Assembly (NCBI RefSeq): GCF_026000375.1
Contig: NZ_AP026708.1
Coordinates: forward strand, 2,888,001 to 2,952,000
Direction: 5' to 3'
DNA: 64,000 nt
From: Pseudodesulfovibrio portus
GTDB lineage: Bacteria > Desulfobacterota > Desulfovibrionia > Desulfovibrionales > Desulfovibrionaceae
Below, piece by piece: positions 17,995 through 26,216 of the stretch. The notes under the pieces were generated by a model. It was not told the origin of the DNA. It did not search any database and saw only the letters and a program-made list of their open reading frames with translations. A program made the position numbers and the translations under genes. The stretch's first letter is position 1, and the number at the start of each line of letters is the position of its first letter.

Positions 17995-18113
17995 CGCCGA
18001 AGGCGCGATAAAAAGTTTAGGAAAAGAGAGGGATGGGGGGCCGGGGGAAGGGGAGAGAGGGAAGCCCTTTCCCAAAGGGTGCCCTCTCTCCCCTTCCCCC
18101 GGCCGCCGGAGGC
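17995..18113. repeat. Family-C hairpin element, copy 1
   Basis: Flanked by CGCCGAAGGCG and GGCCGCCGGAGGC, it contains a perfect 21-bp stem (18041-18061 with 18082-18102) made of G/A-rich and C/T-rich strands. An inner CCCTTT/AAAGGG hairpin caps it. A related element with a different stem sequence is at 53480-53561. Confidence 0.85.
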
Positions 18114-18118
18114 CCCGC

Positions 18119-19888
18119 CTATGCGGCGGCGGTTTCCTCGGCGGTGAAGCAGACCTTGCGGTCCATTTCCCGGACTTTCTTGAGGATGCGTTTGGCGATG
18201 GACTTGAATTCCTGGAGGTCGGACCGTTCGTGCCGGGCCTTGGCCCGGGTCAGCCCGGCCAGGTCCAGGGTCTCGTTGAACAGGTAGGGCATGTACAGGG
18301 GGTCCTGCTTGACGAACATCTCGATCCGTTCCAGCGAGGTGTGGATTTCCTTCTGGTTGGCCGTGATGTTCTTGAACAGCTTGGTCAGGTGCTTTTCCGC
18401 GTTGCGCATGGAAGTGGTCCACATGGGGGAGCGGGGTTCCAGGCGGATGGGCGGGACCGCGTTTCGGCAGGCCATGAGGTCGCCCATGAACCGGTCCACG
18501 CTGCCGGGGGCCGAGGCCAGGATGCCGCGCGAGTATGCCGCGTCCAGGTCGATGGCTTCGGTGCCATCGATGGGCACGCCGCCGCCGTAGACGTTGTAGA
18601 TGGGGAAATCCGCCTGCTTGAGGTCGTATTCCAATTCGCGCTTGGCGGTCATGTACTGGACAGTGGTCAGGATGGTCTCGCCATCCATGTTCTTGGTGTC
18701 CTGGTGGTAGGAGGCCCGCTTTATCTTGGTGTTGGTGTTGTGGTGGCCCGCCGAGTGGGACTTCCCGTTGATCCAGGCGTAGTCCTGGCCGACCATCAGG
18801 ATGTGGCTCACGCCGCAGGTCCGCAGCAGCCGCGACAGGGTCACGGAGACGTTGCCGCCCGCGTCCAGCACCAGGTCGCGCTGCTTGAGCACGTATGTGC
18901 CCATGCCGCCCACGGTCCACATGGGCAGGGTGGGGCCGGGGTAGCGCTTGAGCAGCATGGGGTCCACCTTGGTGGAGTATATGAGCGGGATGTCGGATGC
19001 GAAGTCCGGGTCCAGCCGGTCGAAAATCCTGAGCATGGAGGAGTCGTAGTCGATGGCCGCGCACAGGTGGGGCTTGATGCCGAGCTTCTGCAGCACGGGC
19101 AGGGTCTGCAGCGCGCAGGTGTAGAGCACGTGTCCGGGCCGTTCGGCCAGCCGGGGGGCCATGTCTTCCAGGCTGGGGCCCGCGCCGAGGATGACCGCGC
19201 CCACGCCGTTTGCCTTGCCTTCGATGGATTTCAGGCTGCCGTCGAGCATGGCCCGCTTGAAGTTGTCGATCTCGTTGCCGACCATGACGTCCTGGCGGAA
19301 GCGCAGGGTGGACAGCTCCAGGGAAAAGTTTTCCAGCCGGTTCTTGATCAGGGTGGTCCACTGGGCGTATTCCGGGCCGAGCTGGCGGCTGGGCAGGTCG
19401 CCCTTGAGGTGGATCTGGCCGTAGATGAACTGCAGGTCGAGGTTCTTGACGACTTCGGCCACGAACCGTTCGTCCGGCACCAGGATGTGAAATTTCCTGG
19501 CCTCGAAGAAGGGCCGGTAGTCGGTCTGGCCCAGGCAGGCGAGCAGCATCTCGGTGCGCGGCTCGAGCAGCATGACCTTGTGCGTGTCGGGCGTGTTCTT
19601 GAGCAGGTGGTTGACCCCGTAGCCGAGGTTCGAGCCGACCACGAAGGTGGCCGAGGTGTCGGCCTTGTCCTTGTGCAGCCAGTTTGCGTAGAGCCCCTCG
19701 GGCGGCAGTGATTCGAGCAATCCCTTGCCGGATTCCATGCGCCAGTCGTGCAGGCCGAAGTCGTTGATGAAGATGTTGTTCTTCAGCTTGTCGATCTGGA
19801 AGTCCTGGGCGGAAAGCCATTGGAAAATGGGGTTTCCCGTGCGTTCAAGATACTCGATGTTGTCTTTCAGGTAGGGGTATGCGCTCAT
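18119..19888 (-). CDS. Maf-type motility-associated glycosyltransferase (DUF115/MptE-like)
   Basis: A 589-residue cytoplasmic protein of the Maf/DUF115 family, whose members glycosylate flagellin with nonulosonic acids such as pseudaminic acid. The central DUF115 core (about residues 190-400) shows GVGAVILGAGPSLEDMAPRL, LCAAIDYDSSMLRIFD and SHILMVGQDYAWINGKSHS. The frame extends upstream to 19939, but ATG 19888 has AGAGG 6 nt before it, while ATG 19894 has none at proper distance. No other flagellar or nonulosonate gene is present, so this is an orphan copy here. The acceptor is inferred from the family only. Confidence 0.85.
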   Translation of the reverse strand: MSAYPYLKDNIEYLERTGNPIFQWLSAQDFQIDKLKNNIFINDFGLHDWRMESGKGLLESLPPEGLYANWLHKDKADTSATFVVGSNLGYGVNHLLKNTPDTHKVMLLEPRTEMLLACLGQTDYRPFFEARKFHILVPDERFVAEVVKNLDLQFIYGQIHLKGDLPSRQLGPEYAQWTTLIKNRLENFSLELSTLRFRQDVMVGNEIDNFKRAMLDGSLKSIEGKANGVGAVILGAGPSLEDMAPRLAERPGHVLYTCALQTLPVLQKLGIKPHLCAAIDYDSSMLRIFDRLDPDFASDIPLIYSTKVDPMLLKRYPGPTLPMWTVGGMGTYVLKQRDLVLDAGGNVSVTLSRLLRTCGVSHILMVGQDYAWINGKSHSAGHHNTNTKIKRASYHQDTKNMDGETILTTVQYMTAKRELEYDLKQADFPIYNVYGGGVPIDGTEAIDLDAAYSRGILASAPGSVDRFMGDLMACRNAVPPIRLEPRSPMWTTSMRNAEKHLTKLFKNITANQKEIHTSLERIEMFVKQDPLYMPYLFNETLDLAGLTRAKARHERSDLQEFKSIAKRILKKVREMDRKVCFTAEETAAA

Positions 19889-20027
19889 GTTCATCCTCTC
19901 GGTGCTCAAAAAATGGACGGTCCTGGGCGTGATTTGCACGTTTGATGCCAGTTGCGCCCGTTTCGATATTCCCTTACGGTGCGTCCAACAACCGCAATAC
20001 CAACCCGCATGATTTCAAGGCCGTAGG

Positions 20028-22307
20028 ATGAACAAGGATCTGCTCGCGCTCATAGGCAACACGCCGTTGGTGGAGATTCGCCACCTCAACCCCAATCCGA
20101 ACGTCAAGGTTTTGGCCAAGATCGAGTGCCGGAATCCCGGCGGCTCCATCAAGGACCGGGTGGCCGCCGCCATGATCGCGGCTGCCGAGAAGTCCGGCGA
20201 ACTGACCAAGGACAAGATCATCATCGAGGCCACCTCCGGCAACACCGGCGTGGGGCTGGCCATGGTGGCCGCCATCAAGGGCTACAGGATCAAGCTGCTC
20301 ATGCCGGAGACGGCCTCCGAGGAGCGCAAGATGATCATGGCCGCCTACGGGGCGGAGCTGGAGCTGACGCCCGGGCACCTGGCCACTGACGGGGCCATCG
20401 AGCAGGCCTACCGCTACGCCCGCGAGGAGCCGGACAAGTACGTGCTCATGGACCAGTACAACAACCCGGCCTCCGTCGACGCCCACTACAACGGCACGGG
20501 CCGGGAAATCTGGGAACAGACGAACGGCACGGTCACCCACTGCGTCATGACCCTGGGTACCTCGGGCACGGCCATGGGCATCGCCAAGCGGCTGCATGAA
20601 GAGGGCGACGTGTACGTGGCTGCCGTGGAGCCCTACGCGGGCCACAAGATTCAGGGTCTCAAGAACATGCTCGAATCCTATCCGCCGGGCATCTACGACA
20701 AGACCGCGCTCGACGAAATCCTGCATGTGGACGACGAGACCGCATTCGACAACTGCCGCAGGCTGGCGCGCGAGGAGGGCATCTTCGCGGGCATGAGCTC
20801 CGGCGCGGCCCTGGGCGGGGCCCTGCAACTGGCCGAACGGCTGGACAAGGGCGTGGTGGTCTGCATCTTCCCCGATTCCGGCGAGCGGTATCTCTCCACC
20901 CACCTCTACCGGCAGCAGTCCGGCGGCGGGGTGACGATTTTCGACATGGCCTCGGGAACCGAGAAGGCGCTGAACACCGGCTCCGGCCTGGGCGTGTACA
21001 CCATGGGCCCGAGCCTGGACAACCCGGACGGGCTGGACGCCTGGCGGCGCGTGGTGCTGCTGGACGTGTTCACCCGCCACATGATCGCGCGCGGCACGGC
21101 CGTGGACGCGGCGGTGGGGTTGACCGACATGGACGACCGCACCCTGACCGCGGCCCGCGAGGGCGACGTGTCCCGCGACGGCCTGGCCGCCGAGGGTCGC
21201 GAAGTCATCGAGGAACGCGCCCGGTCCATGGGCGTGGACGAGTCCCTGAATTTCCCCCTGTCTTCCGCCAGCAACGAGACCTGTGTGGCCCTGTGCACCC
21301 GGCTCATGGGCAAGGGGCTGGCCTACGAGAAGCTCCGCAGCGTGTATTTCGACGTGTTCCGCGACAAGCGGTACGGCGAGATCGGCACGGTGGACATGGA
21401 CAAGGTGTCCGGCGGCCGCACGGTGGATCTGAACGCCTACGTCAAGGACAACCCGCTCGATTTCACGCTCCTGAAACGGGCCACGCTGCTCGACCTGAAG
21501 CGCGGCGAGGTCCTGGAAACCGAGTGGGGCAACGTGCGCCCGAGCTGGTTTTTGCAGCACGCGGCCATGGCCCTGGACGAGCTGCCGCGCATCGACGTGA
21601 TGATCGGCTCGGACAAGCACCGCTTCCCGCACCTGGAAAACCTGCGCGCCATCTGGAGTACGGCGGGCCGCGAACTCCAGGCCTGGATGGTCTGCCAGCA
21701 GGCAACGGACAGCGAGGGCGAGAAACTTTCCGCCGTGGCCGAAAAACTCGGCGGCTTCCGCGCGGCCCGGCTCTGGCTTCTTTCGGTGGCCACCCGCAAG
21801 CCCCTGTGCGCCTCGAGCGACACCCTGAACATGTGGGGTCGCAACTGGCGCAAAATCCAGGAATGCGCGGTCACCCTGACCCTGGCCCTGGACGGACGCG
21901 GCGACACCGTTCCCCCGGACGCGGAACAGGCTGTCTTCGACCTCAAGGCCGGTTTCAAGGCCGCCATGGACGACACCCTGTCCCTGCACCACTTCTGGCC
22001 GACCCTGTTCAAGTTCGTGAAACAGGTCAACGGCTGGGCCAAGGCCAACACCCTGACCGGCCCGACGGCCAAGGCCTGCCTGGACGAACTCACGGCCATG
22101 GACGCCATCCTGGGCATCCTCGACCCCGCCCAGATGCCGGTCCCCCTCTCCGACCTCCCCGACCAAGTCCAGGGCATGGTCGCCGACCGCCAAAAGGCCC
22201 GCGAGGCCAAAGACTTCGCCATGTCCGACGAGTTAAGGGACAAGATAGCCGAGGCAGGATTCAGGGTCGAAGACACCGGCGGCGTGCCGAGGGTGTTTAA
22301 GGCGTAG
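20028..22307 (+). CDS. cysK: Cysteine synthase fused to a degenerate cysteinyl-tRNA synthetase
   Basis: A 759-residue fusion. Residues 1-300 are a complete PLP-dependent cysteine synthase (O-acetylserine + sulfide to cysteine): GGSIKDR with the PLP lysine 42, SGNTG 70-74, GTSGT 177-181 and PDSGER 282-287. Residues ~305-759 follow cysteinyl-tRNA synthetase from end to end: GVYTMGPSLDNPDGLD, LTDMDD 365-370, DPLDF-like PLDFTLLK, FPHLEN 533-538, and the C-terminal AREAKDFAMSDELRD...LEDTP-like tail. The zinc cysteine of CGPT is Met326, the HIGH box is DGLD, the second zinc cysteine and final Glu are lost, and no KMSKS is present, so it should not aminoacylate. AAGG lies 7 nt before ATG 20028. A strong terminator follows. 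Confidence 0.9.
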   Translation: MNKDLLALIGNTPLVEIRHLNPNPNVKVLAKIECRNPGGSIKDRVAAAMIAAAEKSGELTKDKIIIEATSGNTGVGLAMVAAIKGYRIKLLMPETASEERKMIMAAYGAELELTPGHLATDGAIEQAYRYAREEPDKYVLMDQYNNPASVDAHYNGTGREIWEQTNGTVTHCVMTLGTSGTAMGIAKRLHEEGDVYVAAVEPYAGHKIQGLKNMLESYPPGIYDKTALDEILHVDDETAFDNCRRLAREEGIFAGMSSGAALGGALQLAERLDKGVVVCIFPDSGERYLSTHLYRQQSGGGVTIFDMASGTEKALNTGSGLGVYTMGPSLDNPDGLDAWRRVVLLDVFTRHMIARGTAVDAAVGLTDMDDRTLTAAREGDVSRDGLAAEGREVIEERARSMGVDESLNFPLSSASNETCVALCTRLMGKGLAYEKLRSVYFDVFRDKRYGEIGTVDMDKVSGGRTVDLNAYVKDNPLDFTLLKRATLLDLKRGEVLETEWGNVRPSWFLQHAAMALDELPRIDVMIGSDKHRFPHLENLRAIWSTAGRELQAWMVCQQATDSEGEKLSAVAEKLGGFRAARLWLLSVATRKPLCASSDTLNMWGRNWRKIQECAVTLTLALDGRGDTVPPDAEQAVFDLKAGFKAAMDDTLSLHHFWPTLFKFVKQVNGWAKANTLTGPTAKACLDELTAMDAILGILDPAQMPVPLSDLPDQVQGMVADRQKAREAKDFAMSDELRDKIAEAGFRVEDTGGVPRVFKA

Positions 22308-22335
22308 ATTTTTACTTGAGATACGGAAAGAAGAA

Positions 22336-22359
22336 GGCCGCCCGAAAGGGCGGCCTCTT
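22336..22359 (+). terminator. Terminator after the cysK fusion
   Basis: An 8-bp perfect stem GGCCGCCC/GGGCGGCC with a GAAA loop, followed by TCTTTT, 29 bp after the stop codon. Confidence 0.9.
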
Positions 22360-22416
22360 TTCGTGGACAACGCCTTTATATTTGCATATCTATATACGTC
22401 CAAGGATGGAGGGCGT

Positions 22417-23010
22417 ATGTTTGATTATATTGGGCGGCTTCTTAGTGGCTTAGATGAGATATGCTCTACGCATATAACCCCATTAATTTTCGAGGGAGTG
22501 AAGGCGTATAGTGACGCACTCATTAAAGCTGTATTTAAGCGGATGCTTATTAAATTCATTTTTGCGGTAGTCGCTATAGGGTCATTGGTTTTATTGTACA
22601 AATTTGAAGATTATCCAGTTCGAATATTAGCGATAGTGTTTTCGGCGGTGTACTTAATCTTTTTGGCCGATACATTGCGACAAGTAGCAAGGAATTCAGG
22701 TACATTTTGTCGGTTGCTAAAATATCACAGGTATTTCATAGCTAATGAGCTTTTTAGGATAAAGCCTTGGTGGCTTACAGCGATACAGTATATTTTATTC
22801 CTTCGAGGTTCGTTGCCATCAGATGAGCAAATTTCGAGTGTGATTATTAGTCATATAAAATATAGACTATGTTTATTGATTGGTTTTTTTGTATTGTACG
22901 TAGTAACGTATAGATTTCTTGTCTCGCTTTTAATCCCGCTATGGGGGTATAAAATTGCATTTTATGAGCAACCTTGGGTAGCCGTTATTACTGTATTTAG
23001 TATTCTTTAA
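22417..23010 (+). CDS. AT-rich orphan membrane protein, probably acquired
   Basis: A 197-residue protein with about four hydrophobic helices (for example LIKFIFAVVAIGSLVLLYKF, ILAIVFSAVYLIFLADTL, LCLLIGFFVLYVVTYRF). I recognise no family. The gene is far richer in A+T than anything else in the window and uses codons such as ATA, TTA and AGT, unlike its neighbours, so recent transfer is likely. A GTG at 22363 is in frame but lies in the terminator of the previous gene. ATG 22417 has GGAGG just 4 nt upstream and gives MFDYIGRLL. A repeat-rich gap lies right after it. It could be a remnant of a larger mobile insert. Confidence 0.6.
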   Translation: MFDYIGRLLSGLDEICSTHITPLIFEGVKAYSDALIKAVFKRMLIKFIFAVVAIGSLVLLYKFEDYPVRILAIVFSAVYLIFLADTLRQVARNSGTFCRLLKYHRYFIANELFRIKPWWLTAIQYILFLRGSLPSDEQISSVIISHIKYRLCLLIGFFVLYVVTYRFLVSLLIPLWGYKIAFYEQPWVAVITVFSIL

Positions 23011-23196
23011 TATCTGATAAGAGGACGTATTGTTAGCCCTAACTACACGCGGCTTAGAAGCTGACGAATCACCGGAGCGTCTCCGCCCGAAACCCGGCGG
23101 GAGCGGAGCGACCAACTGTTTCTGGAGCGCAGGGGATTCGATCAGATTCTTGCCCCGGGAGCGCGGGGCGGCCGCGCTGGAAAGCCGCATTTTTTT

Positions 23197-23232
23197 GGTT
23201 CTTTTTTGGGGCGGCTCAGCCAAAAAAGAACC
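23197..23232. repeat. 13-bp stem hairpin in GC-rich module
   Basis: GGTTCTTTTTTGG (23197-23209) pairs perfectly with CCAAAAAAGAACC (23220-23232) around a 10-nt loop. It lies inside a GC-rich block with further repeats (CCGCCCG/CGGGCGG-like around 23085-23105). The style suggests another intergenic repeat family, but only one copy is in the window. Confidence 0.6.
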
Positions 23233-23305
23233 CCGCCGGGAGGGCAACAAAAAGACTTGGAGGAGCGTCAGCGACGGCTTTTCCCTCTTCTCCAATTGTA
23301 TTCAA

Positions 23306-23343
23306 AAAGCGGGGAGCCTCCCATCAGGAAGGCTCCCCGCTTT
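23306..23343. terminator. Bidirectional terminator before the binding-protein gene end
   Basis: A 14-bp perfect stem AAAGCGGGGAGCCT with its complement and an A-run on its left, so it ends the minus-strand binding-protein gene with a U-tract. Confidence 0.85.
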
Positions 23344-23379
23344 ATTCCATCAATCCCGGCGGCGCAGCCGCCATCACCC

Positions 23380-24147
23380 TCAGTTCCCTTTGCCCAGATA
23401 CTTCTCCCGGATAGCCTGGTGTTCATCGGTCTGCTTGAACGCCTTGAGCTCGTCGGAGAACCGCTGCACGAACGCTTCCCCCGTCACCTGGCGGTTGAAC
23501 ACGATATACAGCCCGTCCCGCTTGATCTCGATGCCGTTGACCGGGCGGATGGCCGTGTCGCCAAGGTCCCGGACCAGGGTCAGGCCGTTGCCGAACTCGG
23601 CTACGGTGGCGTCCAGGCGGCCCTCGCTGAGCTTCCTGAAGTTGATGTCGTCGTTGTAGACTTTCTCCACCGTACAATTGGCCGTGATGAAGTTCCAGAA
23701 TTCGGGCGTGTAGCTGTAGCCGAGCACAACCCCGACGGTCTTGCCCTTGAGGTCGTCCAGGGTCAGGATGGAACTGCCCGCCTTGGTCCAGATCACCCAG
23801 GAGGACTCGAAGATCGGCTCCTCCGGGTAGCGCAGGTATATTTCACGCGCCGGCGTGTGGTTGGCGGAAATAAGCGCGTCCGCCTCGGCGTACCGGATGG
23901 CGTCCAGGGCCCGCTTCCAGGGGAAGGCCCGGAGCTCGACGTGAACGATGTCCATGCGCCGGTACACGGCTTCGACAATTTCCACCGCCATGCCGGTGAC
24001 GCCGTCTTCGGTTTTGAACTGATAGGGAGGCCAGATGTCGCATACCAGCGAAACACCGCGGTCCGCCATGACCGGCGGGCCGGAGAGCGCGATCGCCGTG
24101 AGCAGGGCGACCGTGAATCGCAGTATGCGCGTCCGGATATTTTTCAT
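23380..24147 (-). CDS. Periplasmic solute-binding protein, family 3
   Basis: A 255-residue secreted protein with a Sec signal (MKNIRTRILRFTVALLTAIALS..., cleavage likely near VMA-DRG). The mature domain matches polar amino-acid-type binding proteins: PPYQFKTEDGVTGMAVEIVEAVYRRM, FPWKRALDAIRYAEADAL and TLDDLKGKTVGVVLGYSY. No permease or ATPase gene is adjacent, so it may serve a transporter elsewhere or be a stand-alone sensor-type binding protein, a common arrangement in Desulfovibrio relatives. ATG 24147 is chosen because AGAGG lies upstream and the signal begins there; the frame opens at 24177. Confidence 0.85.
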   Translation of the reverse strand: MKNIRTRILRFTVALLTAIALSGPPVMADRGVSLVCDIWPPYQFKTEDGVTGMAVEIVEAVYRRMDIVHVELRAFPWKRALDAIRYAEADALISANHTPAREIYLRYPEEPIFESSWVIWTKAGSSILTLDDLKGKTVGVVLGYSYTPEFWNFITANCTVEKVYNDDINFRKLSEGRLDATVAEFGNGLTLVRDLGDTAIRPVNGIEIKRDGLYIVFNRQVTGEAFVQRFSDELKAFKQTDEHQAIREKYLGKGN

Positions 24148-24249
24148 GGCGTATTGTCCCTCTAGCAATGATACCACCTGCAGTCATTTATTGTAAAGCT
24201 CCCCAGGATTTGGCATTCGCGGTCATAGTGCCGCATGAGAAGCGAAGAA

Positions 24250-24280
24250 GGGGAGCCTTTCACACGTGGAAAGGCCCCCC
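24250..24280. terminator. Terminator-like hairpin after msrAB
   Basis: CCTTTC (24256-24261) pairs with GAAAGG (24269-24274), extended by GGGG/CCCC. It lies 28 bp past the minus-strand msrAB stop. Confidence 0.5.
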
Positions 24281-24307
24281 TCCAATGGGTCAGTCGCCTG
24301 CAAGCGG

Positions 24308-25426
24308 CTATTCGAAGAAGTGCAGGAAATCGCCATATCCCTCTGCCGCCATGTCTTCCCTGGGCACGAAGCGCAGTGCGGCTGAGTTCATGCAGTACCG
24401 CAGCCCCGTGGGTTCCGGCCCGTCGTTGAAGACGTGCCCCAGGTGGGAGTCCGCGTTCCTGCTGCGGATTTCCGTGCGGGTGGTGAAGAGGCTCCGGTCT
24501 TCCTTTTCCACGATGTTTTCCGGGACCATCGGGCGGGTGAAGCTCGGCCAGCCCGTGCCGGACTTGTACTTGTCCGTGCTGGAGAACAGCGGCTCGCCGC
24601 TGACGATGTCCACGTAGATGCCGGGCCGCTTGTTGTCCCAGTACTCGTTGTCGAACGGCGGCTCGGTGCCTTCATGCTGGGTGACCTTGTACTGGAGCGG
24701 CGTGAGCCTGGACTTGAGCGTCGCGTCGTCGGGCTTCACGAAGGTTGATCCGTCCGAGGCCGGGCCGGGCGTCGCCGCAGCGGGTGCCTTGGCCTCGTCG
24801 CCCCAATGCTCGTCCACGAACCGGTCGCGGCCCGAGAAGAAGCGGTAGGTCTTGTAGCGCACGGGATTGTGCTTGTAGTAATCCTGGTGATACCCCTCGG
24901 CATTGTAAAAGGTCGTAAAGGGGATGACGGGCGTGACGACGGGGACGGAGAACCGGCCCGATTCGCCCAGTGCCCTCTTCGAGGCCTCGGCGACTTCGCG
25001 CTGGGCCTCGGAGTGGTAGAATATGGCGGAGGTGTACTGGAAGCCCCGGTCGCCGAAGGACCCGCCCTCGTCGGTGGGGTCGAAGTGCTTCCAGTAGTGA
25101 TCCAGCACCCGGGCATAGCTCACCACCGTGGGGTCGAAGAAGACCTGAACGGCCTCCCTGTGGCCCGTTGTGCCGCTGGAAACCTGCTGGTAGGTAGGGT
25201 CGGCTTCCTCGCCGCCCGCGTAGCCGGACACGGCCTTGATCACGCCGGGCAGCTTCTCCATGTCGGATTCCACGCACCAGAAGCAGCCTCCTGCGATAGT
25301 GGCGATTTCAACATTTTTATCGTCGGTCATGGCATCCCCCTCGGGTGCGGAGAATAGGACGAAAGTCAACGCCAGCAGGGCTGTCAGCGTTGCCAGCGCC
25401 AGGGGCAGGGCATACTTGCGGGTCAT
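24308..25426 (-). CDS. msrAB: Secreted bifunctional methionine sulfoxide reductase MsrA-MsrB
   Basis: A 372-residue fusion that repairs both methionine sulfoxide stereoisomers outside the cytoplasm. An N-terminal hydrophobic signal (residues ~5-27) is followed by MsrA with GGCFWC (Cys48, Cys51) and HRE-type [15 protein letters not shown]. MsrB (about 240-372) has [31 protein letters not shown] and catalytic Cys345 in RYCMNSAAL. The usual MsrB resolving cysteine (SGCGWPSF) is Thr here, and the zinc CxxC pairs are absent, so MsrB is a one-cysteine form. GAGGTG lies 6 nt before ATG 25426. A possible Fur/PerR site lies about 30 bp upstream. Confidence 0.93.
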
Positions 25427-25454
25427 GGCGATCACCTCTGTATATGAAAATAGG

Positions 25455-25471
25455 TATCATTATTATCATGA
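25455..25471. promoter_or_regulatory. Possible Fur/PerR box upstream of msrAB
   Basis: TATCATTATTATCATGA (complement TCATGATAATAATGATA) resembles arrays of the GATAAT hexamer. It is flanked by two direct copies of TGAAAATAG (25444-25452 and 25473-25481). It lies about 30 bp before msrAB, where a repressor of an oxidative-stress gene would bind. The match is by eye only. Confidence 0.35.
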
Positions 25472-25667
25472 CTGAAAATAGACATCATCAACCCGGATGT
25501 CAATGGAGGGTCAACCGGCCGTTTGGTATTATATTTACAAAAAAAGGGTGGATTTTTGATAAATAATCATGCACAAGCCTCCCTTCCGGCAGTGCGGCCA
25601 GAAAAAAAACCTGCTACCATGCCGGAACTCCAAGCAGATAAAGACCATATTCATACAAGGAGAGACC

Positions 25668-26216
25668 ATGTCCAACCAGAGCTACACCCTGTTCAGCGGC
25701 GGTGCCCAGGGCGCCGAGAACCAGTTCGGCAAGCTGGCCGAATACCACGGCATCAATGAAGTGAACTACACCTTTGAAGGCCACAAGATCGAGCGCACGC
25801 GCGGTGTCCGCGTCCTGACCGACGAGGAACTGAAGCAGAAGGACGTCAGCCTGACCTACGTGTCCAAGCTGCTCAACCGCAAGTTCACCAACGCCGAAAA
25901 GATGCGCAAGGTCCTGCAGACGATCATGTGGCAGGTGGAATCCAGCCACCAGGTCTTCGTGGTCGGCACCATCCTGGACGACGGCACCGTCAAGGGCGGC
26001 ACTGGTTGGGGTGCCGAGTTCGCCAAGATCTGCAACAAGGAGCTCTACGTCTTCGGCCAGGTCAAGAACGGCTGGTTCAAGTGGGAGCAGGGCGAGTGGG
26101 TTTCCGTTGAAGCCCCGGTCATCACCGACAATCATTTCACCGGCACCGGCACCCGCTTCCTTGAAGACAACGGCAAAAAAGCCCTGGAAGAGCTGTTTGC
26201 CCGTTCCTTCAAATAA
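25668..26216 (+). CDS. Small SLOG-like (DprA/LOG-type Rossmann) protein of unknown role
   Basis: A 182-residue cytoplasmic protein. The N-terminal YTLFSGGAQGAENQFGKLAE resembles the glycine-rich phosphate loop of SLOG-type proteins, which bind nucleotides or their derivatives. GGTGWGAEFAKICNKELYVF further on would be the second Rossmann motif. No catalytic role can be assigned. AAGGAGA lies 4 nt before ATG 25668, and the upstream extension in the frame is unsupported. The gene is monocistronic, preceded by an AT-rich leader and followed by a strong terminator. The family assignment is moderate; the remainder is description. Confidence 0.65.
   Translation: MSNQSYTLFSGGAQGAENQFGKLAEYHGINEVNYTFEGHKIERTRGVRVLTDEELKQKDVSLTYVSKLLNRKFTNAEKMRKVLQTIMWQVESSHQVFVVGTILDDGTVKGGTGWGAEFAKICNKELYVFGQVKNGWFKWEQGEWVSVEAPVITDNHFTGTGTRFLEDNGKKALEELFARSFK

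Follow-up and report, generated by a model that had tools for sequence, protein, structure and literature searches.

An open reading frame at 20028–22307 of a stretch of Pseudodesulfovibrio portus DNA is confirmed to encode a fusion of a CysM-type cysteine synthase with a full-length homolog of cysteinyl-tRNA synthetase (CysRS). The stretch, hereafter the window, covers 64,000 nucleotides (contig NZ_AP026708.1, positions 2,888,001 to 2,952,000). A preliminary description had proposed a cysteine synthase–CysRS fusion from the letters of the window, and searches with domain and equivalog models bear it out. We tentatively suggest, at somewhat less than even confidence, that the protein is a CysM carrying a pseudo-CysRS that would read tRNA-Cys and couple cysteine supply to tRNA-Cys demand. 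The features of the locus are collected in Table 1. Structure models of the fusion (pTM 0.61–0.62) give no firm domain arrangement and have low confidence in the linker and the connective-peptide loop. The best 50 PDB matches returned by Foldseek all belong to the synthase half because one domain fills the list; structural matches of the CysRS half were obtained with VIA-align.

Table 1. Features of the fusion gene and its surroundings, in positions of the window
Feature	Position	Strand	Remark
MptE-like protein, divergent neighbour	18119..19939	-	cluster beside the fusion in 13/17 close-relative loci (window included)
Whole fusion gene	20028..22307	+	759 aa plus stop
CysM-type cysteine synthase half, residues 1-300	20028..20927	+	profile matches
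K212 in loop GLKNMxESYPPGIY	20661..20663	+	K in 282/282 fused rows
Linker, residues 289-300	20892..20927	+	low model confidence
CysRS-like half, residues 301-759	20928..22304	+	profile and structure alignment
M326 replacing zinc ligand C28	21003..21005	+	
GLDA (335-338) replacing HIGH	21030..21041	+	
Connective-peptide insert with nine family-specific residues	21339..21506	+	loop 461-470 pLDDT <50
H511 replacing zinc ligand C209	21558..21560	+	
HLENL (535-539)	21630..21644	+	H234, E236, N237 equivalents kept; E238 ligand lost
CysS_C anticodon-binding domain (708-752)	22149..22283	+	
R721, R725, F730, D734 = E. coli R423, R427, W432, D436	22188..22229	+	G34-contact counterparts
Terminator-like hairpin directly 3' of the fusion gene	22335..22357	+	pattern match only

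The synthase half exceeds the cut-off of the cysKM model TIGR01136 (352.7 versus 344.15 bits) and falls short of that of the CysM equivalog TIGR01138 (348.1 versus 394.2 bits), although no other equivalog model listed for this half does better. Conservation was followed over 282 fused rows. Of these, 123 are of Desulfovibrionales type and comprise the window protein, the closest relatives listed for it and 8 loci; a further 117 are relatives of a single early-branching protein, and 42 are loci spread over other families. Near-copies were left in throughout. K42, aligned to what we take to be the PLP lysine of CysM, is a lysine in 281 of these rows and falls in a gap in the remaining one. The fused CysM halves are 57–64% identical to that of the window in 43 early-branching loci and 69–99% identical in 114 Desulfovibrionales-type proteins, whereas no cysteine synthase exceeds 47% identity to it in 40 hand-picked genomes of the class that lack the fusion, 39 of which have some cysteine synthase match at E ≤ 1e-30. 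Therefore, within this sample, the CysM type is not kept without its partner, and by these identities the CysM and CysRS halves are lost together in the genomes sampled.

In the CysRS half of the window protein, GLDA stands in place of HIGH, the KMSKS loop is deleted, and the zinc positions read M/H/H/L. The loss of HIGH, KMSKS and three of the four zinc ligands, as originally described, extends to the whole Desulfovibrionales lineage in the alignment: none of the 123 rows retains C28, C209, E238 or the first His of HIGH, the KMSKS loop is mostly deleted, and the T68 position varies. “Catalytically dead”, the wording first used, cannot be asserted for the family, because many members outside Desulfovibrionales keep the zinc ligands, HxG and KMSRS; the CCHE zinc set, HxG and KMS are all present in 103 of the 282 fused rows. 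Model scores show the same gradation. The cysS equivalog TIGR00435 (cut-off 340 bits) gives the window protein 126.7 bits, while five early-branching members of our own choosing score 461, 430, 358, 302 and 237 bits, so that L075, L097 and L086 (in this order) pass and L071 and L094 do not. The anticodon-binding domain CysS_C is recognized in the window protein above its cut-off (30.4 versus 23 bits), and the pseudo-CysRS is 27% identical to the separate CysRS of its own genome. A reading as an MshC-like ligase was rejected on scores far under the cut-off of the equivalog TIGR03447 (485 bits), which are 47.7 bits for the window protein and 84–216 bits for the five early-branching members. One fused row, P0212, has the only HxGH (HLGH) among the 282, together with KMGPE and without E238.

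The fusion has a wide distribution. A 17-row profile that represents the CysRS half, run on 348 genomes of the class, gave bimodal best E-values, below 1e-96 for fusions and above 1e-53 where only ordinary CysRS is present, with 14 genomes matchless. By hand count the fusion group comprises 161 of the 348 genomes, divided between the window's family (115/288) and five other families of the order (46/60), while whole genera are without it (g18 0/79, g33 0/19, g21 0/15, g24 0/10 and g12 0/8). Across the phylum, sampled with 395 genomes from 246 genera, matches at E ≤ 1e-60 occur in 145 genomes and 97 genera; with one exception, they lie in open frames longer than 700 aa. The profile used for the phylum covers only the CysRS half, and the presence of CysM in frame was checked in 43 early-branching loci, in 42 of which one frame spans both halves. 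The 145 genomes are rather a lower bound, because weaker fusions under the threshold would be missed. The preliminary description, which pointed to long CysK proteins in Desulfovibrio and to a fusion that may be lineage-wide, is upheld on the lineage-wide spread by the profile search in the class, but was too narrow, since long-frame matches run through the phylum.

A scan of genome contigs with patterns from the window protein found 18 loci. Seventeen are close relatives, among them one titled Pseudomonadota and one that is just a piece of CysM at the end of a contig; the eighteenth, from Eisenbacteria, matches the CysM half only. Among the matches listed, the synthase domain is absent from 3 of 120 Desulfovibrionales-type and 1 of 120 other proteins, which may be broken or cut genes. 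Annotation depends on the clade, as NCBI names are mostly “cysteine synthase” for Desulfovibrionales-type proteins and mostly “cysteine--tRNA ligase” for the others, and JGI names vary, which is a caution for annotators. DVU0663 is presumably the cysK of D. vulgaris. Several irregularities were also seen. In L042 (G309) and L099 (G361) the two parts of the fusion do not share a reading frame. A second fusion copy in G309 has an open frame of 764 codons; the assembly of G361 consists of one contig. G367 has a third CysRS-like match (G367:C1:594025-595398, 436 bits, open frame of 742 aa) at neither of its two cysteine synthase matches, and G478 has a CysRS-like stretch (G478:C61:164356-165615, 303 bits, model positions 1–409) in which two TAA codons stand in frame.

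A quick maximum-likelihood tree, rooted on E. coli, was made from CysRS sequences, 51 fused and 22 separate. The fused CysRS domains form one group in it (SH-aLRT 100), and the tree thus points to one origin of the fusion followed by many losses. The nearest separate CysRS (support 98) come from two genomes and have HIGN for HIGH. These sequences, L133 and L134 (G450 and G504), also carry KMAKS. Desulfovibrionales sit on the longest stem, with 1.6 changes per column, and odd composition was flagged in 12 tree rows, including most Desulfovibrionales; with the E. coli root, this makes long-branch effects possible. On the tree, the CCHE zinc set must have changed state at least 6 times, the first His of HIGH at least 7 times and KMS at least 8 times. 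Across the fused family, the catalytic motifs erode stepwise.

What is retained differs by region. Retention of 130 positions invariant (≥90%) in 22 canonical CysRS was scored in nine Desulfovibrionales rows (two of them identical), with region borders set by us. It is highest in the anticodon-binding domain (mean 0.77; 6/10 positions kept in all rows), followed by the connective peptide (0.59; 16/28), the two Rossmann halves (0.41 and 0.43; 7/34 and 9/34), the helical bundle (0.38; 1/8) and, lowest, the KMSKS region (0.26; 1/16). In E. coli, G34 of tRNA-Cys is hydrogen-bonded by Arg427 and Asp436, stacked on Trp432 and reached by Arg423 through a water network, according to passages of a recent analysis of the complex (PMC12684709, which cites Hauenstein 2004). 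The counterparts of Arg423 and Asp436 are present in all 282 fused rows, that of Arg427 in 281 with one Lys, and an aromatic residue occupies the Trp432 position in all 282. Given positions invariant in canonical CysRS, the chance of keeping all three polar contacts is about 0.17 if only this domain is considered and 0.03 if the entire CysRS half is. These residues are thus suggestive, not proof, of tRNA-Cys reading. In addition, ten residues conserved in at least 97% of the 282 rows occur in none of the 22 canonical CysRS: R341, next to where HIGH once stood, and S438, T465, Y471, T480, R484, L487, L490, K491 and G493 in the connective peptide. Among these, Y471, L490, K491 and G493 depend on the alignment, because all or most canonical CysRS have gaps in their columns.

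Selection was estimated from 40 listed pairs. The eight with the lowest dS in the CysRS half (0.26–0.44; one gene is counted twice, as L007 and L038) give dN/dS of 0.13–0.39 for the CysRS half and 0.09–0.15 for the CysM half, and the connective peptide, at about 0.06–0.22, is near the CysM level. In less close pairs, the ratio is 0.56–0.86 for the CysRS half; since it rises for the CysM half too, to as much as 0.60, we read these values as underestimated dS in GC-rich genes. By these ratios, the CysRS half is under purifying selection in close pairs. This bears directly on the view of the CysRS half as an unselected relic, which can hardly be credited even though HIGH, KMSKS and the zinc ligands were lost repeatedly and two broken-frame copies exist. 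Random decay, named beforehand as the outcome that would undo the proposal, is contradicted by dN/dS below 0.4 in the close pairs and by 51 CysRS-half positions conserved in at least 97% of the 282 rows, and the frame is open in all but one of the 43 early-branching loci read.

The other cysteine genes of these genomes provide further context. A separate CysRS with HIGH, KMSKS and FPHHENE is encoded elsewhere in the window's genome (G000:C1:2295620-2296516); the intact, separate cysS that the preliminary description had asked to be confirmed is thus present. The same genome has a CysK-type gene (140919–141779) adjoining, on the same strand, a CysE match (139994–140488) that scores 169 bits against a model cut-off of 211, a cut-off missed in 34/34 fusion and 27/30 fusion-lacking genomes, matchless ones counted. 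The window's genome thus has both the CysE and the fusion route. For a wider view, 34 of 139 fusion genomes outside the class were hand-picked, spread over families. All 34 have a CysRS match over the cut-off, and 32 have a separate full-length CysRS, the other two (G352 and G370) being assemblies 79 and 90% complete. At E ≤ 1e-30, a second cysteine synthase is found in 17 of the 34, and the fusion is the sole cysKM match in the other 17; exactly these latter 17 have no CysE match at that threshold (Fisher p 9e-10, relatedness ignored), compared with a CysE match in 28 of 30 hand-picked fusion-lacking genomes. In the 17 genomes with both genes, cysK and cysE share one contig in 16 and lie within ~1 kb in 15. 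The earlier suggestion of a scaffold for CysE, in which the CysRS-like domain would serve the cysteine synthase complex, could draw on the presence of cysE and cysK in the window's genome, but is very improbable given the 17 fusion genomes that have no CysE match and the position of the window genome's cysE beside cysK rather than the fusion.

Where CysE is missing there is no known source of O-acetylserine, and the CysM half therefore probably takes O-phosphoserine instead. The CysM of M. tuberculosis uses this substrate, according to the title of entry 3dki and a reference cited in PMC9855970, and a passage of the latter calls for caution, as the Campylobacter enzyme is CysM-like yet uses O-acetylserine only. 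A distant acetyltransferase could also have been overlooked in the CysE-less genomes.

The gene neighbourhood gives no lead. Over 56 loci (17 close-relative loci including the window and 39 others) there is no widely shared functional neighbour, and an operon-based function was rejected on this ground. The neighbours are lineage-local, namely the MptE-like cluster gene and, upstream in 6 loci, a thymidylate-kinase-like gene named by us from its sequence. No tRNA gene was found in the window, no Rfam match at 18000–25600 and no promoter-like site, and terminator-like hairpins number 2 in the stretch against 2.5 in shuffles. Further along, the window encodes an MsrA–MsrB fusion (24308–25435, minus strand), a peptide methionine sulfoxide reductase with PMSR and SelR domains, and two 215-codon open frames on the plus strand (22363–23010 and 25569–26216) that have no Pfam match at E ≤ 0.001.

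How might the two halves work together? Among the roles first considered, coupling of cysteine supply to charging, or sensing of tRNA-Cys, appears to fit best because the anticodon-reading residues stay. The CysRS half would no longer activate cysteine and would still read tRNA-Cys, which would dock on it by its anticodon; the presence or charging state of the tRNA would then be relayed through the rebuilt connective peptide to CysM. Cysteine synthesis would then follow the needs of tRNA-Cys. Feedback by cysteine usually acts on CysE, so a CysE-free route would need another control, and the fusion might provide it. For a synthetase paralog in such a role, HisZ is a precedent (passage of PMC9437257), and a tRNA-Cys sensor on a cysteine synthase seems to us the simplest account. 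In early-branching members, the pocket may still bind, or even activate, cysteine. A more specific version, that uncharged tRNA-Cys binds the pseudo-CysRS by its anticodon, switches on CysM and replaces the CysE feedback point, is doubtful as a whole, and nothing speaks specifically for a bolder form, in which a serine ester carried by the tRNA would be the substrate of CysM. We infer tRNA binding, regulation and O-phosphoserine use from patterns in sequences. Conservation of R and D in the anticodon-binding domain may be structural, and the poorly retained helical bundle also speaks against tRNA reading, as do the missing shared operon and tRNA gene against regulation.

The CysRS fold might instead only stabilize or oligomerize CysM, or dock a protein, and bind neither tRNA nor cysteine. 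This would leave the catalytic and zinc sites free to go, and nine of the ten family-specific residues do lie in the connective peptide rather than in a known ligand site. MshC does without an anticodon-binding domain, and a mere scaffold need not keep one with all four G34-contact positions; a structural role of this kind seems rather unlikely. CysRS* likewise dispenses with that domain (Mukai 2017, as reported in reviews).

Two further possibilities center on the old amino-acid pocket. It could bind cysteine and exert feedback on CysM, by analogy with HisZ and HisG (as outlined in a passage of PMC9437257). The complete set of zinc ligands is present in 26 of the 51 fused rows of the tree and, among the 117 relatives of a single early-branching protein, in 105; the equivalents of W205 and H234 are kept in 277 and 282 of the 282 rows, respectively. 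In Desulfovibrionales, however, a thiol reading is unlikely because all 123 rows have lost three zinc ligands and T68 varies among them, and as an account of the family a cysteine sensor is distinctly improbable. Alternatively, early-branching members could still turn cysteine handed over by the CysM half into Cys-AMP and load it onto tRNA-Cys, or ligate it elsewhere; the Desulfovibrionales proteins would then be a later wreck. The 103 rows with CCHE, HxG and KMS, the three of five scanned early-branching members that pass the cysS cut-off, and the HIGN type of the nearest separate CysRS fit such an enzyme. Against it, the single row with HxGH has an altered KMGPE and no E238, nearly all sampled genomes have a separate full-length CysRS (the two exceptions being incomplete assemblies), and the motifs changed state at least 6–8 times on the tree while the domain stayed, which leaves this make-and-charge scheme with a small probability. 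The preferred reading remains that of a CysM coupled to tRNA-Cys through a pseudo-CysRS, as worded above.

Synthetase paralogs that have lost catalysis and taken on other roles are known as single cases. Within one phylum, the present family offers a graded series in which the motifs range from nearly intact to fully eroded, always joined to the synthase of the same amino acid, so that the transition from a synthetase to a pseudo-synthetase can be traced. The phylum is rich in sulfate reducers and sulfide producers. If the tRNA reading is true, a tRNA sensor within one polypeptide would link amino-acid synthesis to translation, and may explain how cysteine supply is controlled in genomes without a CysE match.

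To our knowledge, no CysM with a CysRS half has been known; the nearest known synthases are the CysM of E. coli (2bhs) and of M. tuberculosis (3dki), to which the fusion adds the CysRS half. No paper describing a CysM–CysRS fusion was found in the open-access literature searched, in whose passages the CysRS paralogs named are MshC, the cysteine ligase of mycothiol synthesis, from which the fusion is set apart by its MshC score given above, and CysRS*. The latter, from Desulfobacterales, lacks the anticodon-binding domain and is coupled to selC*/selB* (Mukai 2017, via reviews). As far as those reviews go, CysRS* shares with the fusion its phylum, its origin as a CysRS paralog and a changed connective peptide, but the fusion keeps the anticodon-binding domain and is joined to CysM; identity with CysRS* was rejected on the presence of CysS_C, the different architecture and the lack of a tRNA gene in the window. 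HisZ, the regulatory HisRS paralog that acts with HisG, has no adenylation activity and is tied to the biosynthesis of its own amino acid (passage of PMC9437257). In anatomy it resembles the fusion, as both are synthetase-derived, lack catalytic motifs and are tied to the same amino acid, whereas the fusion has a CysRS fold, a covalently attached synthase and a kept anticodon-binding domain. Being a CysRS homolog, the domain does not belong to HisZ and could at most work like it. Compared with canonical CysRS (TIGR00435), the fusion has its domains in the same order and shares the connective peptide and an anticodon-binding domain that carries the G34-contact residues, but the window protein lacks HIGH, KMSKS and three zinc ligands, and the family gains ten residues of its own and sits behind CysM. 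Among repurposed synthetase paralogs, the CysM–CysRS fusion is thus unusual in both architecture and spread.
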